Shown here piece by piece: positions 3,511 through 17,917 of a stretch of 22,725 nt of DNA. Positions within the stretch are counted from its first letter, which is position 1. Each line of letters opens with the position of its first letter. Under the pieces are notes generated by a model. That model had not been told where the DNA came from. It saw only the letters and a program-made list of their open reading frames with translations, and ran no database searches. This stretch comes from a virus. The translations under genes were made by a program, and so were the position numbers. The DNA is taken from positions 1 to 22,725 of the IMG/VR virus record IMGVR_UViG_3300013306_000057; one strand, given 5' to 3'.

Positions 3511-5466
3511 ATGTTGAACCGGGCCTACAGCCTGCTTGAGATCAAGCGGGTGGACGAAGACGCGCGCGAGATCACCGGCATGGCCTCGACGCCGACGCCG
3601 GATCGCTTGCAGGATGTTGTCGAGCCGACCGGGGCGCAGTTCAAGCTGCCTCTGCCGCTGCTGTGGCAGCACGATTCGAGCCAGCCGATCGGTCATGTCA
3701 CGCATGCCAAGGTCGGCAAGGCCGGCATCGAGATTGTCGCCAGGATCGCCAAGGGTGTGACGGCCGAGATCGACCGCGCCTGGTCGTTGATCAAGGCCGG
3801 CCTCGTTCCTGGCCTCTCGATCGGCTTCAAGCCAATCGAGCATGAATTCATCAAGGAGACCAAGGGAATCCGTTTCATCAAATGGGATTTCCTGGAGCTG
3901 TCGGCGGTGACCATTCCGGCCAACAGTGAATGCACCATCGCCACCGTGAAATCGATCGACACTGCGCAGCGGGCCGCGTCAGGCCCAAAAGCTCGCGGTG
4001 TCGTCCGACTACTGGACCCACCGGGCGCCTCCGGCTCATTGAAACTCAAAGCCCAGGAGGGCACCCAAATGAAAACGATAGCAGAGCAGATTACCGCGCT
4101 GGAAAACAAGCGTGCGGCCAGTGCCACGCGCATGGAAGCGGTGATGCAAAAGAGCCTCGACGAGGATCGCACCTCGGACGTGGCCGAGCAGGACGAGTTT
4201 GACAATCTCGAATCCGAGGTTTCGGCCATCGACAAGGACCTGGTGCGGCTGCGTGCGGTCGAGCGGGCCAGGGCGTATGCGGCCAAGCCGGTGGTCAAGG
4301 CCGACACGGCGCACGAAGGCACGGTACAGCGCGGCGGCTCGATCGTCGTCAAGCCGCAGCCGAGGCTGGAGCCGGGACAACTCTTTGCTCAGAAGGTCAA
4401 GTGCATGGCGCTGTCGCAGAAGGTGTTTCGTCCCGCAGCCGATATCGCTGCGGAAATGTACGGTCCCGACAGCGACGTCGTTGGCGAGTTCAAAACGGCG
4501 GTGCCGGCCGGCTCGACGATCACAGGTAACTGGGCAGCCAATTTGGCTGTTGTTGACACTGCGGCGGCTGCCGCTTTCTTGGAATATCTGCGGCCGATGA
4601 CCATCCTCGGCCGCTTCGGCGTTGGCGGCGTCCCGGCATTGCGATCAGTGCCGTTCAATACGCCGCTGATCACGCAGACTGGCGGCGGTGCCGGCTACTG
4701 GGTCGGCGAGGGGAAAGCCAAGCCCTTAACCTCGCTTAACTTCGCACGCGCGACGCTACCCCCGCTCAAGGTCGCCAATATCTGTGCCCTGACGGACGAG
4801 TCGATCCGCTTCAGCAATCCGAAGTCGGACCTTATCGTTCGCGACAGTCTGGCGGCGGCGTTGCGGGAACGGCTGGATATCGATTTCATCAATCCAGCGA
4901 AGACGGCGAGCACTGGCGTCTCACCGGCTTCGATCACCAACGGCGCCGCGACGGTGGTGTCGTCGGGCGACACCGCCGACGATATCCGGCTCGACATCCG
5001 GTCGCTCTATGCCAAATTCTCCGCGGCTAATAATCCGGTATCGAGCGGCGTCTGGATCATGTCATCGAACAATGCGGTGGCATTGGCGATGATGACTAAC
5101 CCGCTGGGACAGGCTGAGTTCAACGGCATGACCATGACCGGCGGCACACTCAACGGCATGCCGGTGATCGCCAGCGATTACATCACCAAGGCGATGAACA
5201 TCGTCGTGCTGGTCAACGCCTCCGACATCTTCGTGGCGGATGACGGCGACATCGCAATCGATGCCAGCCGCGAGGCTTCGCTCGAAATGTCGGATGCGCC
5301 TACGGGCGACTCCATCACGCCGACCGGCACCTCGTTGGTCAGCATGTTCCAGACCAACACCGTGGCAATTCGGGCCGAACGCATCATCAACTGGATACGC
5401 GGACGGTCGCAATCGGTTGCTTATCTGACCAGTGCGGACTGGGGCGGCCCGGTTCACACGGCGTAA
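3511..5466 (+). CDS. Fused HK97-type prohead protease and major capsid protein
   Basis: A single 651-aa frame carries two head proteins. Residues 1-150 are an HK97-family (S78) prohead protease: the likely catalytic His is H54 in LLWQHD and the nucleophile is S103 in GLSIGF, with an acidic partner near the KWDFLELSAV segment. Residues 151-186 are a linker. Residues 187-257 form a charged, helical delta/scaffold-like region. From about 320 to 640 the HK97-fold capsid protein follows (YWVGEGKAKP near its middle). The protease normally trims the delta region after assembly. A separate internal start at 4069 (see its own entry) could make a 465-aa capsid protein alone. The gene start at ATG 3511 has TGAGGA 8 nt upstream. 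A strong terminator follows the gene. Confidence 0.93.
   Translation: MLNRAYSLLEIKRVDEDAREITGMASTPTPDRLQDVVEPTGAQFKLPLPLLWQHDSSQPIGHVTHAKVGKAGIEIVARIAKGVTAEIDRAWSLIKAGLVPGLSIGFKPIEHEFIKETKGIRFIKWDFLELSAVTIPANSECTIATVKSIDTAQRAASGPKARGVVRLLDPPGASGSLKLKAQEGTQMKTIAEQITALENKRAASATRMEAVMQKSLDEDRTSDVAEQDEFDNLESEVSAIDKDLVRLRAVERARAYAAKPVVKADTAHEGTVQRGGSIVVKPQPRLEPGQLFAQKVKCMALSQKVFRPAADIAAEMYGPDSDVVGEFKTAVPAGSTITGNWAANLAVVDTAAAAAFLEYLRPMTILGRFGVGGVPALRSVPFNTPLITQTGGGAGYWVGEGKAKPLTSLNFARATLPPLKVANICALTDESIRFSNPKSDLIVRDSLAAALRERLDIDFINPAKTASTGVSPASITNGAATVVSSGDTADDIRLDIRSLYAKFSAANNPVSSGVWIMSSNNAVALAMMTNPLGQAEFNGMTMTGGTLNGMPVIASDYITKAMNIVVLVNASDIFVADDGDIAIDASREASLEMSDAPTGDSITPTGTSLVSMFQTNTVAIRAERIINWIRGRSQSVAYLTSADWGGPVHTA
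4055..4071 (+). promoter_or_regulatory. Internal Shine-Dalgarno and ATG for the capsid part
   Basis: Inside the protease-capsid frame, AGGAGG (4055-4060) stands 8 nt before an in-frame ATG (4069-4071, residue 187). This is the best ribosome site in the first 5 kb and lies exactly at the protease/capsid boundary. Initiation here would give a 465-aa capsid protein without the protease, allowing many capsid copies per protease. The site is seen directly; its use is inferred. Confidence 0.75.
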
Positions 5467-8674: not shown

Positions 8675-8955
8675 AACTACAGCCGCGGCCGGCAATGCAG
8701 GTGCTGGCCTGCAAGCGCTATCCGGTTGCTAAGTTGAAGGGCCTGATCCCGCAAAAATATATCGAGGCGCTGGAGCAGAACCAGATGCTGCGATCGTGCT
8801 GTCGCCATCCTGAGAACCACGAGATCGAGGCATGGAAATCGCGGGCCGAGGAAGCGGCGCCGGATGTGTACATCTTCCACTGTTCGTGCGGACGCAAACA
8901 CAGACGGTTCTGTGTCGGTGGCGGTGACGAGAGGCCATTTTGGGAGATCGGGTGA
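8671..8955 (+). CDS. Cysteine/histidine-rich small protein (possible zinc binding)
   Basis: Protein of 94 aa from a GTG in a GTGA overlap; a TTG four codons earlier is less likely. It contains six Cys, of which RSCCRHPENHE and FHCSCGRKHRRFC make a plausible metal-binding cluster with nearby His. No known domain is recognised. It directly precedes and overlaps a second Cys-rich gene, so the two may act together. Confidence 0.6.
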   Translation: MKLQPRPAMQVLACKRYPVAKLKGLIPQKYIEALEQNQMLRSCCRHPENHEIEAWKSRAEEAAPDVYIFHCSCGRKHRRFCVGGGDERPFWEIG

Positions 8956-9284
8956 ATGTGCCGTGTAATGGTTGTCGTTTATGCTGTCGCATGATGACGC
9001 CTCTACGCCCAGAGATGGGTGACGATCTGGCGTCGTACCAAACAGCCATGTGCTACACGCCGGGCCAGTTGCCGTACATGATCCTCGACCGCCACGCTAA
9101 CGGTGACTGCATCTATCTCGGCGAGCACGGCTGTACGATCTGGGATCGCGCGCCTTATGAATGCCGCATGTTCGATTGCCGCGACTACTTCAAGAATAAG
9201 ACCCGGAACGAGCGCCGTGATCTGATGAAGCGGGATACCGCGGCCAAGCCGTTGTTCGACCGGGCGAAGGAGTTGCTGCGCTAA
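8952..9284 (+). CDS. YkgJ-like cysteine cluster protein
   Basis: Protein of 110 aa from a GTG in a GTGA overlap. The N-terminal CNGCRLCCRMM, with a later CIYLGEHGCTIWDRAPYECR and MFDCRDYF, matches the spacing of the YkgJ/CxxCxxCC family of proposed zinc- or iron-chelating proteins. Nine Cys are present in 110 residues. The function of this family is poorly known; proposals include metal binding or metal-dependent maturation. Its presence in a virion-structure operon is unusual. It ends in a TAATG overlap with the large surface protein gene. Confidence 0.75.
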   Translation: MNVPCNGCRLCCRMMTPLRPEMGDDLASYQTAMCYTPGQLPYMILDRHANGDCIYLGEHGCTIWDRAPYECRMFDCRDYFKNKTRNERRDLMKRDTAAKPLFDRAKELLR

Positions 9285-11412: not shown

Positions 11413-12603
11413 GTGCCGGTCTTTCTCAGGTACAGACCGCAAGTCAAGCCGCATAGAAGGTGGTTACCGCCTGGCCGGGCCGCGGCGGCATTAGTTAATA
11501 AAACAGTCGTTGCTGATGCCGGTTCGTACAGTCTTGCCGGCGCAACGACGACTGCGGTTCTGCATAAGTGGAAGGTCGACGCCACAACGGCTGCGAGCTA
11601 CGCGCTTACTGGCGCGGCAACAACCAGCCTATTACACGCCTACAAGCCGGCGGCGGTTGCGGGCAGTTACGCCTTAGCCGGCGCGGCCACTACCAACGTT
11701 CTGCACAAGTGGACAGTCTCGGCAGGCACTGCGTCGTACGCGCTGACGGGCAACGATGTTGCGTTGACGAGGCTGACGAACAAGTCGCTGGTGGCTGGTA
11801 CTGCCAGCTATGCCATCACTGGGACGGCGGCGTCTGTTCTGCATCGGTGGAAGCCTGTGGCTGCGGCGGGCAGCTACAGCCTCACAGGCTCTGATGTTGG
11901 CGTCCGGCATGTCTGGAAGATTGCCGCTGCCGCCGGGGCATACTCGCTCACGGGCGCGCAGGTCACGTTCCAGCACGTCTGGAAACTGCCGGCAGGCACA
12001 GCGTCGTATGCACTGATTGGCAGCGACGCGGTTCTGAAAAAGATTGCGGGTAAATTCGTCTCGGCCGATCCCGGCAACTACACGCTGACCGGCTCGGCTG
12101 TGGCCGTACTGGTTGGCCGCAAGCTCGCGGCGACGGCTGGCAGTTACGCGCTCACCGGCACCGCGGCCAGTATCGTCTATGAGCCCGGCGTGGTGGCGCC
12201 GCCGATCTTTGGCGGTGGCGGCGTTGCCAGGCCGCCGCGGCCCTATCCAGTCGAGGGTGCGGGTTTCGGAATTCTGCCGCCGATCGAGGGCGAGGCGTTT
12301 GGCGTCGTCATTGTCGCCGGCGTTGGTCAAGGCACGCTGCCGCTGCTTGAAGGCCAGGCAACAGGATCAATCGGCGTTGCCGGCAGATCGGCGGCACAGC
12401 TCGCCATCAAAGCGGCGGCCGTTGGCCAGCGCGGCCAGGCTGGCGCGGCGGAAGCCACGCTCAAGAGCATCGCGGCTGCAAGTTCGGGCCGCGCCATCGC
12501 GTGCGGGAAAGGTTACGGGATGATCGTGAAACTTGAGGGCGCCGCTGTCGGACGCCAGGACGATGACGAGGCCGCGGCGGTGACGTTCCTGCTGGCGGCA
12601 TAG
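11413..12603 (+). CDS. Tandem-repeat virion surface protein (GSYALTG repeats)
   Basis: Protein of 396 aa, GTG start directly after the previous TAA with GAAGAGG upstream. Residues about 30-258 hold ten imperfect repeats of 21-24 aa with core A-G-S-Y-A-L-T-G and a Trp/Lys-containing spacer (LHKWK, VRHVWK). After a Pro/Gly-rich hinge (EPGVVAPPIFGGGGVARPPR) comes a second repeat type with E-G-x-A-x-G and leucine-proline steps. This looks like a repetitive solenoid or fibrous surface protein. The Ser/Thr/Tyr content offers many possible glycosylation sites, relevant to the nearby glycan genes. It is not membrane anchored. The role is inferred from architecture and neighbours. Confidence 0.7.
   Translation: MPVFLRYRPQVKPHRRWLPPGRAAAALVNKTVVADAGSYSLAGATTTAVLHKWKVDATTAASYALTGAATTSLLHAYKPAAVAGSYALAGAATTNVLHKWTVSAGTASYALTGNDVALTRLTNKSLVAGTASYAITGTAASVLHRWKPVAAAGSYSLTGSDVGVRHVWKIAAAAGAYSLTGAQVTFQHVWKLPAGTASYALIGSDAVLKKIAGKFVSADPGNYTLTGSAVAVLVGRKLAATAGSYALTGTAASIVYEPGVVAPPIFGGGGVARPPRPYPVEGAGFGILPPIEGEAFGVVIVAGVGQGTLPLLEGQATGSIGVAGRSAAQLAIKAAAVGQRGQAGAAEATLKSIAAASSGRAIACGKGYGMIVKLEGAAVGRQDDDEAAAVTFLLAA
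11500..12186 (+). repeat. Ten tandem copies of a 63-72 bp coding repeat
   Basis: The DNA repeats follow the protein repeats. Each encodes a near-copy of A-G-S-Y-x-L-T-G plus a spacer ending in a Trp-Lys or similar pair. Units differ by substitutions and by small in-frame length changes, so they have diverged rather than been freshly duplicated. Such arrays can gain or lose units by recombination. Confidence 0.75.
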
Positions 12604-12612
12604 GGAATGGAC

Positions 12613-13257
12613 ATGAGCGAAAAACCGACCATTCCCCGGCCCGCCGTTGCGGTGCCCGGCCCGCATTATACCAAGGACGAAGGCATCGGTGCGGCGCTCG
12701 CGCTGGGCCAGCGTTGCATGGCCCAATTGCGCATATTGGCGCGGACACCGGGGCCGGAAGGGAAGCGCGGACCCGCCGGCGAGAAGGGCGACAAGGGCGA
12801 GCGCGGCGAGGTGGGCAAGGATGGGCCGGCCGGCCACCCGGGTAAGGACGGCATCGACGGCCGGGATGGCGAACGAGGCCAGAAGGGCGAGCCGGGCCGC
12901 AACGCTGCCGACCTGACGCTATTGCAGCAATACATCGACGAGCGAGTCGAGCGCACGCTTAAGGCTGCCTCGGTTACCACGTCGGACGGTGGCCGCACGC
13001 TGCATTGGTCGATGGGCGAAACAGTGCATGAAATAAAAACCGCCGTCGTGCTCGATGCCGGGGTCTGGAAAGAAGGCGCGGCCTATGTCACCGGCGACGC
13101 CGTCAGTCATGGCGGCTCCCTGTTCATCGCGCAAGGCGATACGTCGGAGAGACCGGGCAAGAGCGACCACTGGCGGCTCGCGGTCAAGCGCGGCAATGAT
13201 GGTCGCGACTATCGCGCTGAAGAAAAGCGCCAGCCCGATTTGGTGAGGCTTAAATAA
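12613..13257 (+). CDS. Collagen-like fibre with carbohydrate-binding-like end
   Basis: Protein of 214 aa. The ATG at 12613 is preferred over the ATG at 12607 because AGGGA (12602-12606) lies 6 nt upstream of it. Residues about 47-97 are 17 uninterrupted Gly-X-Y triplets rich in Lys, Glu, Asp and Pro, a bacterial/phage collagen-type triple helix. A helical segment follows (LTLLQQYIDERVERTLKAAS), suited to trimerise the fibre. Residues about 147-190 carry a W...Y..GD.V....S.F....G pattern and a late Trp like carbohydrate-binding family 5/12 modules. It is thus probably a trimeric fibre with a sugar-binding tip. It ends in a TAATG overlap with the connector gene. Confidence 0.82.
   Translation: MSEKPTIPRPAVAVPGPHYTKDEGIGAALALGQRCMAQLRILARTPGPEGKRGPAGEKGDKGERGEVGKDGPAGHPGKDGIDGRDGERGQKGEPGRNAADLTLLQQYIDERVERTLKAASVTTSDGGRTLHWSMGETVHEIKTAVVLDAGVWKEGAAYVTGDAVSHGGSLFIAQGDTSERPGKSDHWRLAVKRGNDGRDYRAEEKRQPDLVRLK
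12751..12903 (+). repeat. 17 Gly-X-Y codon triplets (collagen-like)
   Basis: Seventeen consecutive nine-base units each begin with a Gly codon (GPE, GKR, GPA, GEK and so on), without interruption. This gives a short rigid triple helix with charged X and Y residues that can stabilise it by Lys-Glu and Lys-Asp pairs in the absence of hydroxyproline. Confidence 0.9.
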
Positions 13258-13874
13258 TGCATTCGATCCTGGAAATTTTGGAAGAGGCGACCGACAGCGC
13301 CGGGCCAGACCTGATCTCGCTTGACGATCTGAAGCTCGCGCTCGGCATCGAGGGCACTGCCGAGGACGCGCAGTTGCAGGCCATGATCACGTTTCAAAGC
13401 CGCATCATCGCCGATTACTGCGACCGCCGGTTCGGCTTGGCCGAGGCTGTGGAAACGTTTACTTTCGATCGCGGCGAGACCATGCCGACCCGGCAGGCGC
13501 TGACGCTGTCGCTCTATCCGGTGGTGGAAGTGTTCGAAGTCTCCAGCTTCGGTGCCACTGCGGCCGATTACGATCTCGATCCAACGACCGGCCGGTTGTG
13601 GTCGGATGGCTGGTGGACTGGGTCAGTCAGTGTGCTTTATGCCGGCGGCTACGATCTGCCGGAGCAGGCGCCGGCGCGGTTGCAGAAGGCGGTGATCGAG
13701 GCGGTGTATGAGGGGCGCACCTCGGGCGCCCGCGATCCTTCAATACAACAGGTGACGCACGGCGATACCAGTATTCGTTACTTCACATCAGCCACATCGT
13801 CGGCGTCGGAGGGGTTTCTGTCGGCACCGGTGGTCGACCTGATCAGGCCTTACAGGCGGTTGCGTGTTGCGTGA
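13257..13874 (+). CDS. Head-tail connector protein (gp6-like)
   Basis: Protein of 205 aa resembling the HK97 gp6/phage DNA-packaging connector family. It has an N-terminal helical segment (LISLDDLKLALGIEGTAEDA), then AMITFQSRIIADYCDRRFG, a central TLSLYPVVEVFEVSS, and a C-terminal helical segment (LQKAVIEAVYEGR). In related phages this protein forms the ring beneath the portal that extends the DNA channel. The start is TAATG-coupled to the collagen-like gene. Its 3' end overlaps the next gene by 11 nt. Confidence 0.78.
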   Translation: MHSILEILEEATDSAGPDLISLDDLKLALGIEGTAEDAQLQAMITFQSRIIADYCDRRFGLAEAVETFTFDRGETMPTRQALTLSLYPVVEVFEVSSFGATAADYDLDPTTGRLWSDGWWTGSVSVLYAGGYDLPEQAPARLQKAVIEAVYEGRTSGARDPSIQQVTHGDTSIRYFTSATSSASEGFLSAPVVDLIRPYRRLRVA

Positions 13875-14508
13875 TTCCTATCCCTGGACCGTGCCCTGCG
13901 AGTGGCCGGGCGAATGCGTGTTTATTATTGGCGGTGGGCCGTCCGTGTTGTCGCAGGATCTCAATGCGTTACGCGGGCGGCGGGTGATCGTGATCAATTC
14001 GAGCGTCTATGCGGCGCCGTGGGCAGACTTCCTTTTCTTCGGCGACTGGCGCTGGTGGAACGAAGAGGAGAACAAGGCGGCGGTCGACAGTTTCGACGGC
14101 CGCGTCGTCACCACCACGCGGCTGGTGCGGGGAGATCCTAAGGTTTTGGTTTGCAGGAAAACCAATCCGCCGGGATTGGCGAAGGCGCGAGATAGTCTGG
14201 TGCAGAAATGGACCTCGTTGACGGCGGCGACCAATCTGGCGGCGCATCTGGTTGGGCGCGGCGGCACCATCGTTTGGCTCGGGGCGGACGGCAAGGTTGC
14301 TGCCGATCGCACCCATCATCACAAGCCGCACCGCTGGCCGCATAAGCCGGGCGCCTACGACAAGCAGCATGCGGACCTGGTGACGATCCTGCCGTCGTTG
14401 AAGGCGCTCGGGATTGCGGCATACAATGCCTCGCCCGGTACGGCATGGACCGATCTGTTGCCTCAGGTTGAATTGGAGGACGTATTGGAAGGGCGTCGGG
14501 CAGCGTGA
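13864..14508 (+). CDS. DUF115/sialyltransferase-like protein (putative glycan enzyme)
   Basis: Protein of 214 aa. A G23-G-G-P-S27 loop after a beta strand, then a second strand (VIVINSSVY) and an acidic FGDW patch, give a Rossmann-like N-terminus. Residues about 115-145 (SLTAATNLAAHLVG and IVWLGADGK) resemble the second sugar-nucleotide-binding part of DUF115 and GT42-like glycosyltransferases. A His-rich segment starts at H151-H-H and continues with further His to about 170, as in catalytic loops of that superfamily. The likely role is transfer of a sugar from an activated donor; donor and acceptor are unknown. The start is GTG 13864, with TTG 13867 also possible. It is coupled by GTGA to the next gene. 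Assignment is by motif, not by proven homology. Confidence 0.6.
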   Translation: MLRDSYPWTVPCEWPGECVFIIGGGPSVLSQDLNALRGRRVIVINSSVYAAPWADFLFFGDWRWWNEEENKAAVDSFDGRVVTTTRLVRGDPKVLVCRKTNPPGLAKARDSLVQKWTSLTAATNLAAHLVGRGGTIVWLGADGKVAADRTHHHKPHRWPHKPGAYDKQHADLVTILPSLKALGIAAYNASPGTAWTDLLPQVELEDVLEGRRAA

Positions 14509-15491
14509 GAACTTCCTGGCCGGTAATCGTCAACGGCATGCATGGGATGGGCGATAACGTCCACCAGCGCGCGGTGGTCCGGCATCTGCTTGCGTCCCAA
14601 CCGTCAACCGAAATCTGGCTGAAGACGCCGTGGCCATGCCTCTATCATGATCTCGTCGGCGATCGACTTCATCTGGTTGATCCGAGGAGTTCATTGCGGA
14701 CCCAGCGCAAGAACTCCATCCGCGAACAGGCCAGCTATGTGCCGGCGCCGCGTGTCTCCCAGAGGCAGCGGGTCTCGTACAGTCCCCGGGCGGTTCGGGA
14801 AACTGGATCGGTGCTATCAGCCATGATCCGCACAACGCTCGGATACGATCTCGACGATGCCGACTTCTCGTTGCCGGTGCCTGTGGCATGGCTTGCCAAG
14901 GCGGATGCGGTGCTCGGCCGTCAGCACAAGCCGGTGATGGTACTGCGGCCACTGGTCGAGCGCACTGAATGGGGCGGCTGTGCAGCGCGCAATCCGGACC
15001 CGATTGCCTATGCCGCGCTCTACAACGCTATCCGCCACCGCTTCTTCGTGGTGTCGCTCGCGGACCTGGTGCCGGGTGTAGAGGAATTAGTTAGCGATCT
15101 CGATGCCGACATCTGCCTGCACCAGGGTGAACTGGACACCGAGGCGATCGCCGGATTGATTTCTCGCGCGGCACTGACGTTCTGCTCGCCGGGGTTCGCG
15201 GTGCCGTTGTCGCAGGCGGTCGGCACACCGGCCATCGTCGTGTTCGGCGGCTACGAATGCTCGGCATCGTTCAGTTACGGGCAACGGTTCGCGCCAACGC
15301 TTGGGATCGATCCGATCAATCCGTGTCAATGCTGGTCGCATACCCATGCCTGTGACAAGCGCATCGACCTGAAGGCCGCGCACGCGCGCATAGAGGAGTT
15401 TATCGCAAACCATGTTGCCGAGCATATCGCAATACCATTTGGACGTGCGACCGATCGACTGGAATGGCTTGCCCCGGCGTTTCATGAATAA
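14505..15491 (+). CDS. GT9-like glycosyltransferase (heptosyltransferase-type fold)
   Basis: Protein of 328 aa with a two-domain GT-B-like layout. The N-terminal part has a G-M-G-D motif (residues 14-17) followed by HQRAVVRHLL, the start found in ADP-heptose-type GT9 enzymes. The C-terminal part has a VMVLRPL strand, DTEAIAGLISRAALTFCSPG, and PLSQAVGTPAIVVFGGYE (residues about 225-252), the classic GT9 donor-site pattern. It has no membrane segment, so it acts in the cytoplasm. It could glycosylate a phage protein or a host surface glycan. The GTG start is coupled to the preceding gene by GTGA. The 3' end overlaps the next gene by 80 nt. Confidence 0.72.
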   Translation: MRTSWPVIVNGMHGMGDNVHQRAVVRHLLASQPSTEIWLKTPWPCLYHDLVGDRLHLVDPRSSLRTQRKNSIREQASYVPAPRVSQRQRVSYSPRAVRETGSVLSAMIRTTLGYDLDDADFSLPVPVAWLAKADAVLGRQHKPVMVLRPLVERTEWGGCAARNPDPIAYAALYNAIRHRFFVVSLADLVPGVEELVSDLDADICLHQGELDTEAIAGLISRAALTFCSPGFAVPLSQAVGTPAIVVFGGYECSASFSYGQRFAPTLGIDPINPCQCWSHTHACDKRIDLKAAHARIEEFIANHVAEHIAIPFGRATDRLEWLAPAFHE

Positions 15492-16002
15492 GGGCGAACT
15501 GGAAACGCTGATCGCGCTGATGCGCAGCGTCTGCCCGCGCCACGTCATCGAATTCGGCGTCAATGTCGGCCGCACCGCCAAGGCAATCATGGCAAACGTG
15601 GCCGGGATCGAATGTTATATCGGCATCGATGTCGCGCCAGAGTATGTGCCGGCCAAGGCGGTGCAACGCCAGGAAGTCCCGGCCGATCCTGGCGCATTGG
15701 TCTTGTCCGATCCGCGCTTTGATTTGATCGTCAGGCCGCGCGGCTCGCTGGATTTGTCCGCGGACGAGCTTGCGCCATGCGATGCTGTTTTCATCGACGG
15801 CGATCATGGCCGCGAAGCCGTCCTGCACGACACCGCCTTGGCGCGGGCGCTGGTGCGTAAGGGCGGAATCATCGTGTGGCACGACTATCACCAGCTCGGC
15901 ACCGTGGACGTTAAGGACGTGCTCGACGAGATGCATCGGGCGGGCGATGACATTGTTCGCGTCGACGGTACCTGGCTTGCCTTTGAACGGGTGCCAGGAT
16001 GA
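15412..16002 (+). CDS. Class I SAM-dependent methyltransferase
   Basis: Protein of 196 aa. Motif I is E47-F-G-V-N-V-G-R-T-A (SAM-binding strand and Gly loop). A GIDV strand end follows near residue 70, then FIDGDH (D129, D131, H132) and IIVWHDY (D158). This DGDH/HDY layout is typical of methyltransferases that act on sugars or small molecules. The start chosen is ATG 15412, with GAGGAG 13 nt upstream, giving an 80-nt overlap with the glycosyltransferase gene. A later ATG at 15484 would give an 8-nt overlap but has no visible ribosome site. It would add a methyl group to a glycan made by its neighbours; this target is inferred. Confidence 0.75.
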   Translation: MLPSISQYHLDVRPIDWNGLPRRFMNKGELETLIALMRSVCPRHVIEFGVNVGRTAKAIMANVAGIECYIGIDVAPEYVPAKAVQRQEVPADPGALVLSDPRFDLIVRPRGSLDLSADELAPCDAVFIDGDHGREAVLHDTALARALVRKGGIIVWHDYHQLGTVDVKDVLDEMHRAGDDIVRVDGTWLAFERVPG

Positions 16003-16328
16003 TCGATTACAGCGCGCTGCTCTATGATCCGGTCTATGCCGAGATCGGCGTACCGGCGACGATGGACGGGACAGCTATCACCGTGATCGACGATACGCGG
16101 CCGAAGGTGATACCGGCCGGGATGGCGGACGTGCGCGGCATGGGGCCGGGCGCGTTTGCGCGCATCCCGGAACTGGAAGCAAACGAGATCGCTCGCGACG
16201 ACTGGCAGGACGCATTGTTGGTGTTTAACGGGGGATCGTGGCTGGTGCGCTCTTATGAATTGCGCGGTAGCCCGAACGGCGAGAATCTTGGCGAGGTGCG
16301 GTTCCTGCTGAAAGCAGTCGATGACTGA
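15999..16328 (+). CDS. Head-tail joining (stopper-type) protein
   Basis: Protein of 109 aa that starts in an ATGA overlap with the methyltransferase and ends with an 8-nt overlap into the next gene. Its short beta-rich sequence (IDYSALLYDPVYAEIGVPAT at the start, then FNGGSWLVRSYELRGSPNG near the end) matches the usual size and position of head-closure proteins, which seal the portal-connector channel and bind the tail. Assigned from length, fold pattern and gene order between connector and tail terminator. Confidence 0.65.
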   Translation: MIDYSALLYDPVYAEIGVPATMDGTAITVIDDTRPKVIPAGMADVRGMGPGAFARIPELEANEIARDDWQDALLVFNGGSWLVRSYELRGSPNGENLGEVRFLLKAVDD

Positions 16329-16773: not shown

Positions 16774-17301
16774 ATGCCTACGTCGCCTAATGTCAACAAC
16801 TACCATATTGGAAAAGGAATTGTTTCCTTCAAGGAAGTCGGCGAGAGTGTCTACCGCGACCTCGGCAACGCTCCATCCTTTGTCTATACACCAGCCATCG
16901 AAAAGCTGGAGCACTTCTCATCGAGGGAGGGCGTCAAGACCAAGGACTTCACGGCGGTCACGAAGATTTCCGCGACCATCAAGGTTACCATCGACGAGAT
17001 CACCGGGGAGAATCTCGCCTACTTCGCGCTCGCAGAGCTGGGCACCGACACCGATGGCAACACCACTCTGGAGGGCCTGAAGAAAACCGAATTCGTCGGC
17101 GACATCAGGGTGGTCGGCACCAACGACATCGGCCAGAAGGTAGACTTCGACGCCACCGTCTCGTTCATCCCGGAGGGCGACTTCTCGTTCATCACCGCCG
17201 AGGATGCTTTCACGGAACTGACCATCACCGCCGAGGTGCAGCGCGATAGCAATGGCAGTTTCGGTGTCTGGACTGTGCGCGATGAAGTGGTGAGCGCGTG
17301 A
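16774..17301 (+). CDS. Major tail tube protein
   Basis: Protein of 175 aa with the beta-sandwich pattern of siphovirus tail tube proteins: an early HIGKGIVSFKEVGES strand pair, KISATIKVTIDEITGENLAY, DFDATVSFIPEGDFSF, and ELTITAEVQRDSNGSFGVW. The order tail terminator, tube, two chaperones, tape measure is canonical. A strong AAGGAGA lies 8 nt upstream, consistent with high copy number. The stop TGA shares its A with the ATG of the chaperone gene. Confidence 0.85.
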   Translation: MPTSPNVNNYHIGKGIVSFKEVGESVYRDLGNAPSFVYTPAIEKLEHFSSREGVKTKDFTAVTKISATIKVTIDEITGENLAYFALAELGTDTDGNTTLEGLKKTEFVGDIRVVGTNDIGQKVDFDATVSFIPEGDFSFITAEDAFTELTITAEVQRDSNGSFGVWTVRDEVVSA

Positions 17302-17765
17302 TGGCAGACCTTCTGGACATTGTGCCTGCAACGGCGGTCGAGGTAGTGCATATTGCCGACAATCAGCGCATCAAAGTTCGCGGCTTGCCTGGTTCAGAAA
17401 TTGCAGCCATTGTGGCGAGATTCCCAAACGTGGTCGCGGTGTTAACCGGCGCTGCCGGCGACAACGCGATTGCGCTGTACGGCATGGCCTGTGGCCCGAT
17501 CATTGCCGCCGGTTGCGGTCATCCCGGCAACGAGAAGGCGGAGACGATTGCAAATTCGTTGTTGCTCGAGGACCAGGCCAAATTGATCAAGGCCATCATT
17601 GGCTTATCGTTCCCAAACGGGTTCGGCCCCATCATGGAGACCATCGCGACTCTCATGACCGGGGCAGCAGACGAAAAGTCAAAACCAGTTCGGGTCCGCT
17701 TGAAGACATCGCAATCGGCATCACCGCCCTCATCCGACGCGGATTCCCACCGGATTATGCAATGA
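17301..17765 (+). CDS. Tail assembly chaperone, gpG-like short product
   Basis: Protein of 154 aa with a helical core (residues about 25-115: EIAAIVARFPNVVAVLTG, then NSLLLEDQAKLIKAIIGL). The Ser/Lys-rich C-terminal tail follows the point where the longer product would leave the frame. The gpG protein coats the tape measure protein during tail assembly and is not part of the virion. The start is ATG 17301, sharing its A with the tube gene TGA. A second reading, by a -1 shift near 17672-17684, extends the protein (next entry). Confidence 0.78.
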   Translation: MADLLDIVPATAVEVVHIADNQRIKVRGLPGSEIAAIVARFPNVVAVLTGAAGDNAIALYGMACGPIIAAGCGHPGNEKAETIANSLLLEDQAKLIKAIIGLSFPNGFGPIMETIATLMTGAADEKSKPVRVRLKTSQSASPPSSDADSHRIMQ

Positions 17766-17917
17766 CGCTGACGCCGCGGCAGATCGCGGCTTATCTGGAA
17801 TTCAACGACAAGATCGATCGCATCGAGCGCGCCCATGCTCTGGTGGTCGCAGCGACCGGCGCGCAGGGCGACCAGAAGGCTATCGAGAAGGCGCTGAAGG
17901 AATTATCTGCGGGGTAG
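17301..17917 (+). CDS. gpG-gpT fusion tail chaperone by -1 frameshift
   Basis: The frame one base back of gpG is open through the gpG end and encodes a coherent segment (EDIAIGITALIRRGFPPDYA, then TLTPRQIAAYLEFNDKIDRI) that ends with TAG at 17915-17917. A -1 shift at the Lys codon in CGAAAAG (17672-17678), or at A-AAA (17681-17684), would join the two and give about 205 aa. This is the arrangement of gpG/gpGT in lambda-like phages, where the longer form binds both tape measure and tube protein. An alternative is separate translation of a 51-aa protein from ATG 17762, overlapping the gpG TGA. The open, protein-like upstream frame makes the shift more likely. The exact site is uncertain. Confidence 0.7.
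17672..17684 (+). promoter_or_regulatory. Candidate -1 ribosomal frameshift site
   Basis: In the gpG frame, GAA-AAG-TCA-AAA offers two Lys codons whose tRNA can re-pair one base back (A-AAG at 17675-17678 and A-AAA at 17681-17684). It is not a perfect X-XXY-YYZ heptamer. A shift here leads straight into the open gpT frame. Confidence 0.45.

Follow-up and report, generated by a model that had tools for sequence, protein, structure and literature searches.

Why would a tailed phage carry genes of sugar transfer and methylation among those that build its neck, and what might their products modify? The question is raised by the window, by which the whole 22.7-kb stretch of DNA analysed here is meant, a fragment of a virus record from a soil phage with an HK97-type structural module. 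The module runs in the order terminase, fused protease-capsid gene, portal, surface genes, gp6-like connector, the trio of genes under study, next neck gene, major tail protein and tape measure.

Results

Layout of the locus and its insertion site

The features of the locus are as follows.

13257..13874, + strand: gp6-like head-tail connector, left flank (PF05135, E 2.3e-5; phrog_442 head-tail adaptor, E 2.5e-27)
13864..14508, + strand: gene 1, GT42/DUF115-like transferase, the constant first gene and predicted initiating glycosyltransferase (phrog_4603, AlphaFold/Foldseek)
14505..15491, + strand: gene 2, GT9-like GT-B glycosyltransferase, allele A, predicted extending transferase (phrog_6804, AlphaFold/Foldseek)
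15412..16002, + strand: gene 3, class I SAM methyltransferase of the Methyltransf_24 family, with predicted glycan O-methylation (PF13578)
15999..16328, + strand: next neck gene in the stopper/head-closure position, right flank (by position; it adjoins the gp6-like gene in cassette-free relatives)
13864..16002, + strand: whole cassette, about 2.1 kb, exactly at the junction of the gp6-like gene and the next gene (empty sites in L035, L040, L075, L076, L082, L086 and L087)

An earlier note, made from the letters of the window, had described three consecutive, overlapping genes here, and all three were found intact on the + strand with coupled junctions. The start of gene 1 overlaps the stop of the gp6-like gene (13864-13874), genes 1 and 2 overlap by 4 nt (14505-14508), genes 2 and 3 by 80 nt (15412-15491) and gene 3 and the next neck gene by 4 nt (15999-16002). 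Comparison with relatives revealed purifying selection on all three (dN/dS about 0.10-0.27; dN 0.04-0.21, dS 0.34-1.0), which indicates that the three ORFs are real genes. The gp6-like connector was likewise recognised correctly by the earlier note, as both family matches above attest. Its 'stopper-type' label for the gene at 15999-16328 did not hold up as well, since the product and its relatives were unrecognised by any family library and a profile comparison with the head-closure protein of D3 and PAJU2 was negative; position alone supports the name.

Relatives with and without the cassette were fetched using the major tail protein as an independent query. The comparison with cassette-free relatives, which the earlier note had proposed, yielded empty sites in which the two neck genes overlap directly, in line with its claim that these genes are normally adjacent. 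The overlap amounts to about 10 bases in L035, L040, L075 and L076, and its ATG occupies the same position as the start of gene 1 in the occupied loci L013 and L097. This makes the cassette a discrete insert, one that adopts the translational coupling of the empty site. Virions can presumably be assembled without it. In the tree of the major tail protein, at least four changes in the presence of the cassette are required, two of them forced by well-supported branches. As a separate observation, the neck gene behind the cassette is extended at its C-terminus in four phages (L038, L043, L044, L051) by an additional domain, about 230 residues long, with no family match that was seen in cassette phages only, among the loci measured.

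The phage and its probable host

Integrases are present in related larger records (four of eight related records overall), so the lineage is temperate. No close cultured host was found through portal relatives in genomes; the nearest, about 60% identical, belong to Sphingomonas, Enterovirga, Microvirga and Bradyrhizobium, and in Bradyrhizobium sp. NFR13 the complete trio stands immediately after the connector. The host would be an alphaproteobacterium, probably a Bradyrhizobium-like one.

Several other features of the window deserve mention in their own right. A ParB-like/DNA methyltransferase fusion adjoins the terminase genes (45-1274; type II DNA methyltransferase match, PADLOC E 7e-108), and a single ORF at 3511-5466 encodes both prohead protease and major capsid protein (NCBIfam NF045541-like). 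Among the surface genes is a CxxCxxCC metal-chelating-type protein slightly under the Pfam cut-off (8940-9284), and the product of 11413-12603 contains repeated 'GSYxLTG' units of about 25 residues each and has no family match. Directly 5' of the connector is a collagen-like protein with a C-terminal CBM5/12-like module (12607-13257), found in almost every relative, whether cassette-bearing or not. Two overlapping ORFs ahead of the tape measure (17298-17765 and 17513-17917) may represent a tail assembly chaperone pair made by frameshifting.

Enzyme families of the three genes

A fold search, also proposed in the earlier note, places gene 2 firmly and gene 1 moderately within glycosyltransferase superfamilies. 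Gene 2 matches phrog_6804 (E 2e-38), a family without named function, and its AlphaFold model (pLDDT 90) has the heptosyltransferase GT-B fold by Foldseek, with probability 1.00 for WaaF (1psw, E 2.4e-9), the GT9 structure 3tov (E 1.1e-8), TibC (4rap, E 6.7e-8) and WaaC (2h1h, E 1.3e-6). None of the 38 members of the gene 2 family matched PF01075, the Pfam GT9 family. Across these sequences G14, G16 and D17 of an N-terminal G-x-G-D are invariant, and D17 is presumably the catalytic base, judging from what is known of GT9 enzymes and from the published comparison of TibC with WaaC (PMC4358343). The nucleotide loop of GT9, which we take to be D-x-G-x-x-H, is altered to CSPGFA in the window and to GGVGWI in allele B.

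The TibC/BAHT autotransporter heptosyltransferases, which transfer from ADP-heptose to protein Ser (PMC4358343), serve as a model for gene 2 by virtue of the shared GT-B fold (probability 1.00). However, identity is 10-13%, the model of gene 2 begins with the Rossmann domain and has no N-terminal beta-barrel, and three clustered cysteines (C274, C276, C283) are conserved in place of the four-cysteine iron finger. In bacterial genomes phrog_6804 was detected in 1 of 385 of one class, in 2 of 369 of another (one marginal match included) and in none of 14 controls, a rarity that makes it essentially a phage family.

Gene 1 matches phrog_4603, annotated 'alpha-2;3-sialyltransferase' (E 3.8e-21), and no Pfam family, PF01973 (DUF115/MptE-like) included. 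Its AlphaFold model (pLDDT 88) matches the sialyltransferase CstII (2drj) moderately in Foldseek (probability 1.00, TM 0.52, E 4.9e-3). An 89-row profile compared by hhalign with a CstII query, differing at one residue from PDB 1ro7, gave E 2e-4 at 46% probability over 122 columns, above every control; a narrow gene 1 profile was not significant in the same comparison. A sequence search of the PDB with genes 1 and 2 returned nothing usable. One of 36 gene 1 relatives matches PF01973 (9e-5), the PAJU2 homologue falls under the cut-off for that family (0.005), and the viral structure matches of gene 1 include DUF115/MptE-like phage proteins. Thiamin pyrophosphokinase is also among its fold-search matches, with TM 0.34-0.41 for pyrophosphokinases. 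The GGGPS-type motif and the CstII-related fold are common to gene 1, the Maf/DUF115 flagellin glycosyltransferases and the GT42 sialyltransferases, from which gene 1 differs as a short stand-alone domain without a Pfam match. With moderate confidence, gene 1 is placed in the GT42/DUF115 neighbourhood as a putative transferase, in agreement with the earlier note.

Gene 3 was confirmed as the class I methyltransferase that the earlier note had read there, with a match to PF13578 (E 5.4e-11; 43.7 bits against a cut-off of 26.3). At least three families fill the methyltransferase slot among relatives, namely Methyltransf_24, Methyltransf_23 (phrog_6564), both of these, or TylF. Gene 3 does not belong to phrog_6564, which L022 and other sisters carry, and of the PAJU2-type set (phrog_4603/6804/6564) the window has the first two. 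The TylF-type enzyme in the slot of L229 has as solved matches mycinamicin III 3''-O-methyltransferase, TDP-rhamnose 3'-O-methyltransferase CalS11 and NovP; solved TylF relatives methylate sugars or sugar-bearing antibiotics and natural products.

Allele exchange and trio architecture

In the occupied sites of close relatives, gene 1 retains 66-80% identity to the copy in the window, and gene 2 belongs to one of two alleles, A (about 64-80%) or B (about 30-36%). The exchange is most evident between L097 and L018, where gene 1 (92%), the next neck gene (91%) and the major tail protein (88%) are alike and gene 2 is 35% identical. Gene 2 is below 45% identity in 28 of the 80 pairs whose gene 1 is at least 78% identical, and alleles A and B are interleaved on the gene 1 tree with 5 changes, about 6.5 being expected at random. 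Judged from these sequences, the variation of gene 2 is allele replacement.

Counted over complete, de-duplicated loci, which are mutually related and hence not independent events, all 42 that carry this GT9 family share an upstream GT42 and one or more methyltransferases of a known family, and GT42 precedes GT9 in 53 of 53 loci. A further 18 loci have GT42 without this GT9; some of them, such as L006 and L007, carry glycosyltransferase and methyltransferase genes from other families, and in L142, L145 and L141 GT42 is the sole insert, which suggests that GT42 acts first. These results support the view that two glycosyltransferase-type proteins and a methyltransferase form one unit. The proposal of the earlier note that the three genes build and methylate one glycan is thus strengthened as regards the unit, by the two glycosyltransferase-type folds, the strict order and co-occurrence and the TylF-type alternative in the slot; the glycan itself stays a predicted product.

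Distribution in other phages

The trio recurs in D3, PAJU2, Psp6, Mulvp2, Klebsiella phage Eowyn and a Pantoea prophage. The earlier note had thought the placement inside the connector block unusual, which is not borne out, since the trio stands there in D3, PAJU2, Psp6 and several Proteobacteria prophages and the mycobacteriophage Corndog has a comparable set. PAJU2 (gp10-gp11-gp12) and D3 (orf7/orf12/orf13) resemble the window in the order GT42 (phrog_4603), GT9-like (phrog_6804) and methyltransferase and in having these genes within the head-tail connector block, in phages of HK97 type. They differ in that their methyltransferase is phrog_6564/Methyltransf_23, whereas Methyltransf_24 and another GT9 allele are found in the window; the trio follows head closure in PAJU2, is split around it in D3 and comes directly after gp6 in the window. 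The phrog_6804-type GT9 is annotated 'hypothetical' in D3, PAJU2 and Psp6 and 'family 9' in D14C.

In Eowyn and the Pantoea prophage the trio is a stand-alone operon away from the connector and structural genes, which argues that its linkage is functional rather than merely positional and that it is a portable unit. In Caulobacter phage CcrBL9, tail genes are followed by GT42, GT9 (PF01075, E 9e-7) and methyltransferase. An initial scan of genome contigs with a GT42 profile gave no match; in an unbiased profile search over 392 genomes of one host family, 12 of 13 GT42 loci lay in prophage structural modules, the 13th being near a contig end.

The connector block seems to be a hotspot at which surface genes insert. 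Unrelated genes in the same slot comprise a KilA-N protein in D3 and an annotated anti-CRISPR in D14C. Collagen-like fibre genes were also observed inserted into this block in L009, L010, L012 and L027.

Search for an acceptor

None of the surface genes nearby follows the cassette in its distribution, the fibre and collagen-like neighbours included. The latter were rejected as acceptor because they do not co-occur with it, a collagen-like gene being present in 14 of 15 cassette loci and 10 of 11 cassette-free loci. The repeat gene rep396, considered as a TibA-like heptosylation target, was dismissed because cassette-free phages carry it no less often, and a defence-system reading was set aside as the three proteins have no PADLOC hit. 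Ser/Thr columns specific to cassette phages gave no clear site, only weak, lineage-confounded leads in the C-terminus of the major tail protein and in the capsid protein.

An Ig-like tail domain occurs in 7 of 22 cassette-free and 0 of 28 cassette phages, a hint, with the seven in one part of the tree, that cassette and domain are mutually exclusive. In these seven, L069, L073, L076, L078, L080, L086 and L087, it forms a C-terminal extension of the major tail protein (IPT/TIG in L076).

Discussion

Overall, an enzyme pathway at this locus is well supported; catalysis, donors, order of action and a virion-protein acceptor, be it major tail, capsid or neck protein, are inferred. The reading to which we lean, and which we hold to be somewhat probable, is that the trio glycosylates and methylates a virion protein with host donors, gene 1 initiating, gene 2 extending and gene 3 O-methylating. 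A mobile glycan cassette would be expressed together with late structural genes in a temperate phage of HK97 type. The GT42/DUF115-like enzyme would work in the cytoplasm, attaching the first sugar to Ser/Thr in a virion protein just as Maf-type enzymes modify flagellin; the GT9-like enzyme would extend the glycan, possibly from ADP-heptose or another host donor, and the methyltransferase would O-methylate the product. With host nucleotide sugars at its disposal, the cassette would need transferases only. Exchange of gene 2 and the methyltransferase may alter the displayed glycan, comparable to O-antigen serotype switching.

Virion modification is favoured by both transferase folds with the methyltransferase domain, the strict architecture, the location in structural modules, the allele swap and the precedent of Corndog. 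It is weakened by the want of a co-occurring surface gene or clear Ser/Thr site, by the altered GT9 nucleotide-loop residues with no Pfam GT9 match, and by the likeness of gene 1 to DUF115/MptE-like diphosphokinases. The trio of Eowyn and Pantoea outside structural genes weakens it further and speaks for its main rival, in which the cassette alters the host surface, changing the newly made LPS core late or on induction, such that progeny avoid debris and infected cells. GT9 is the LPS heptosyltransferase family with WaaF as the top structural match of gene 2, the lineage is temperate, with integrases in half of the related records, and O-antigen modifiers are often carried by phages. Conversion genes, however, usually lie at prophage ends with their own promoters, whereas most lineages have the cassette in their late connector block; late synthesis could change new LPS only, the cassette has no membrane or flippase gene, and that GT9 depends on a GT42/Maf-like partner suits a protein-linked glycan better. 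Modification of host LPS is considered unlikely, though not negligible.

Gene 1 might instead be an MptE-like pyrophosphokinase or other nucleotide enzyme, the trio then making a small molecule or modifying DNA or tRNA, as the single PF01973 match, the thiamin pyrophosphokinase in the fold search and the MptE-like names among its viral structure matches would allow. CstII nonetheless fits gene 1 better (TM 0.52 against 0.34-0.41), and its partners are a GT-B transferase and, in one variant, a sugar-type O-methyltransferase, which leaves this reading improbable. We deem it very improbable that the cassette is a hotspot passenger that rides late transcription with a function not tied to the virion: the slot does accept unrelated genes (KilA-N in D3, anti-CRISPR in D14C, collagen-like fibre in L027, L010 and L012), but the low dN/dS, the strict order and co-occurrence of the trio and the specific recurrence of the GT42 family in structural modules tell against it.

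To our knowledge, and as far as our literature searches reached, phage-encoded virion glycosylation is documented mainly in mycobacteriophages. Corndog has an O-methyltransferase and glycosyltransferases between portal and protease, for which capsid glycan and methyl modification was proposed (PMC4351075), and glycosylated virion proteins of Che8, Corndog and Myrna are reported in work cited by PMC12363180. Like gp35-gp38 of Corndog (cluster O), an O-methyltransferase with several glycosyltransferases among structural genes, the window has glycosyltransferase and methyltransferase genes inside its structural operon; the likeness is one of enzyme class and placement, and Corndog differs in the portal-protease position and in its Mycobacterium host. 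A limited literature search found no description of the GT42/GT9/methyltransferase trio.

As a wider and rather doubtful generalisation, the locus could represent a mobile glycosylation system common among phages of Gram-negative bacteria. A virion protein would be primed by a Maf/GT42-like enzyme, and the GT9-like enzyme and methyltransferase, exchangeable as a pair, would add a switchable methylated glycan drawn from LPS donors that are universal (CMP-Kdo, ADP-heptose), so that the surface of neck or tail would vary in a serotype-like way. Since D3 and PAJU2 have been isolated and their host species is a standard one, virion modification is directly testable. The trio, mostly annotated 'hypothetical' in D3 and its relatives, implies that phages of Pseudomonas and alphaproteobacteria may glycosylate their virions too, with exchangeable glycans. 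A changing sugar coat of this kind would matter for adsorption, for how the immune system recognises therapeutic phages and for the status of the neck genes as an insertion hotspot.
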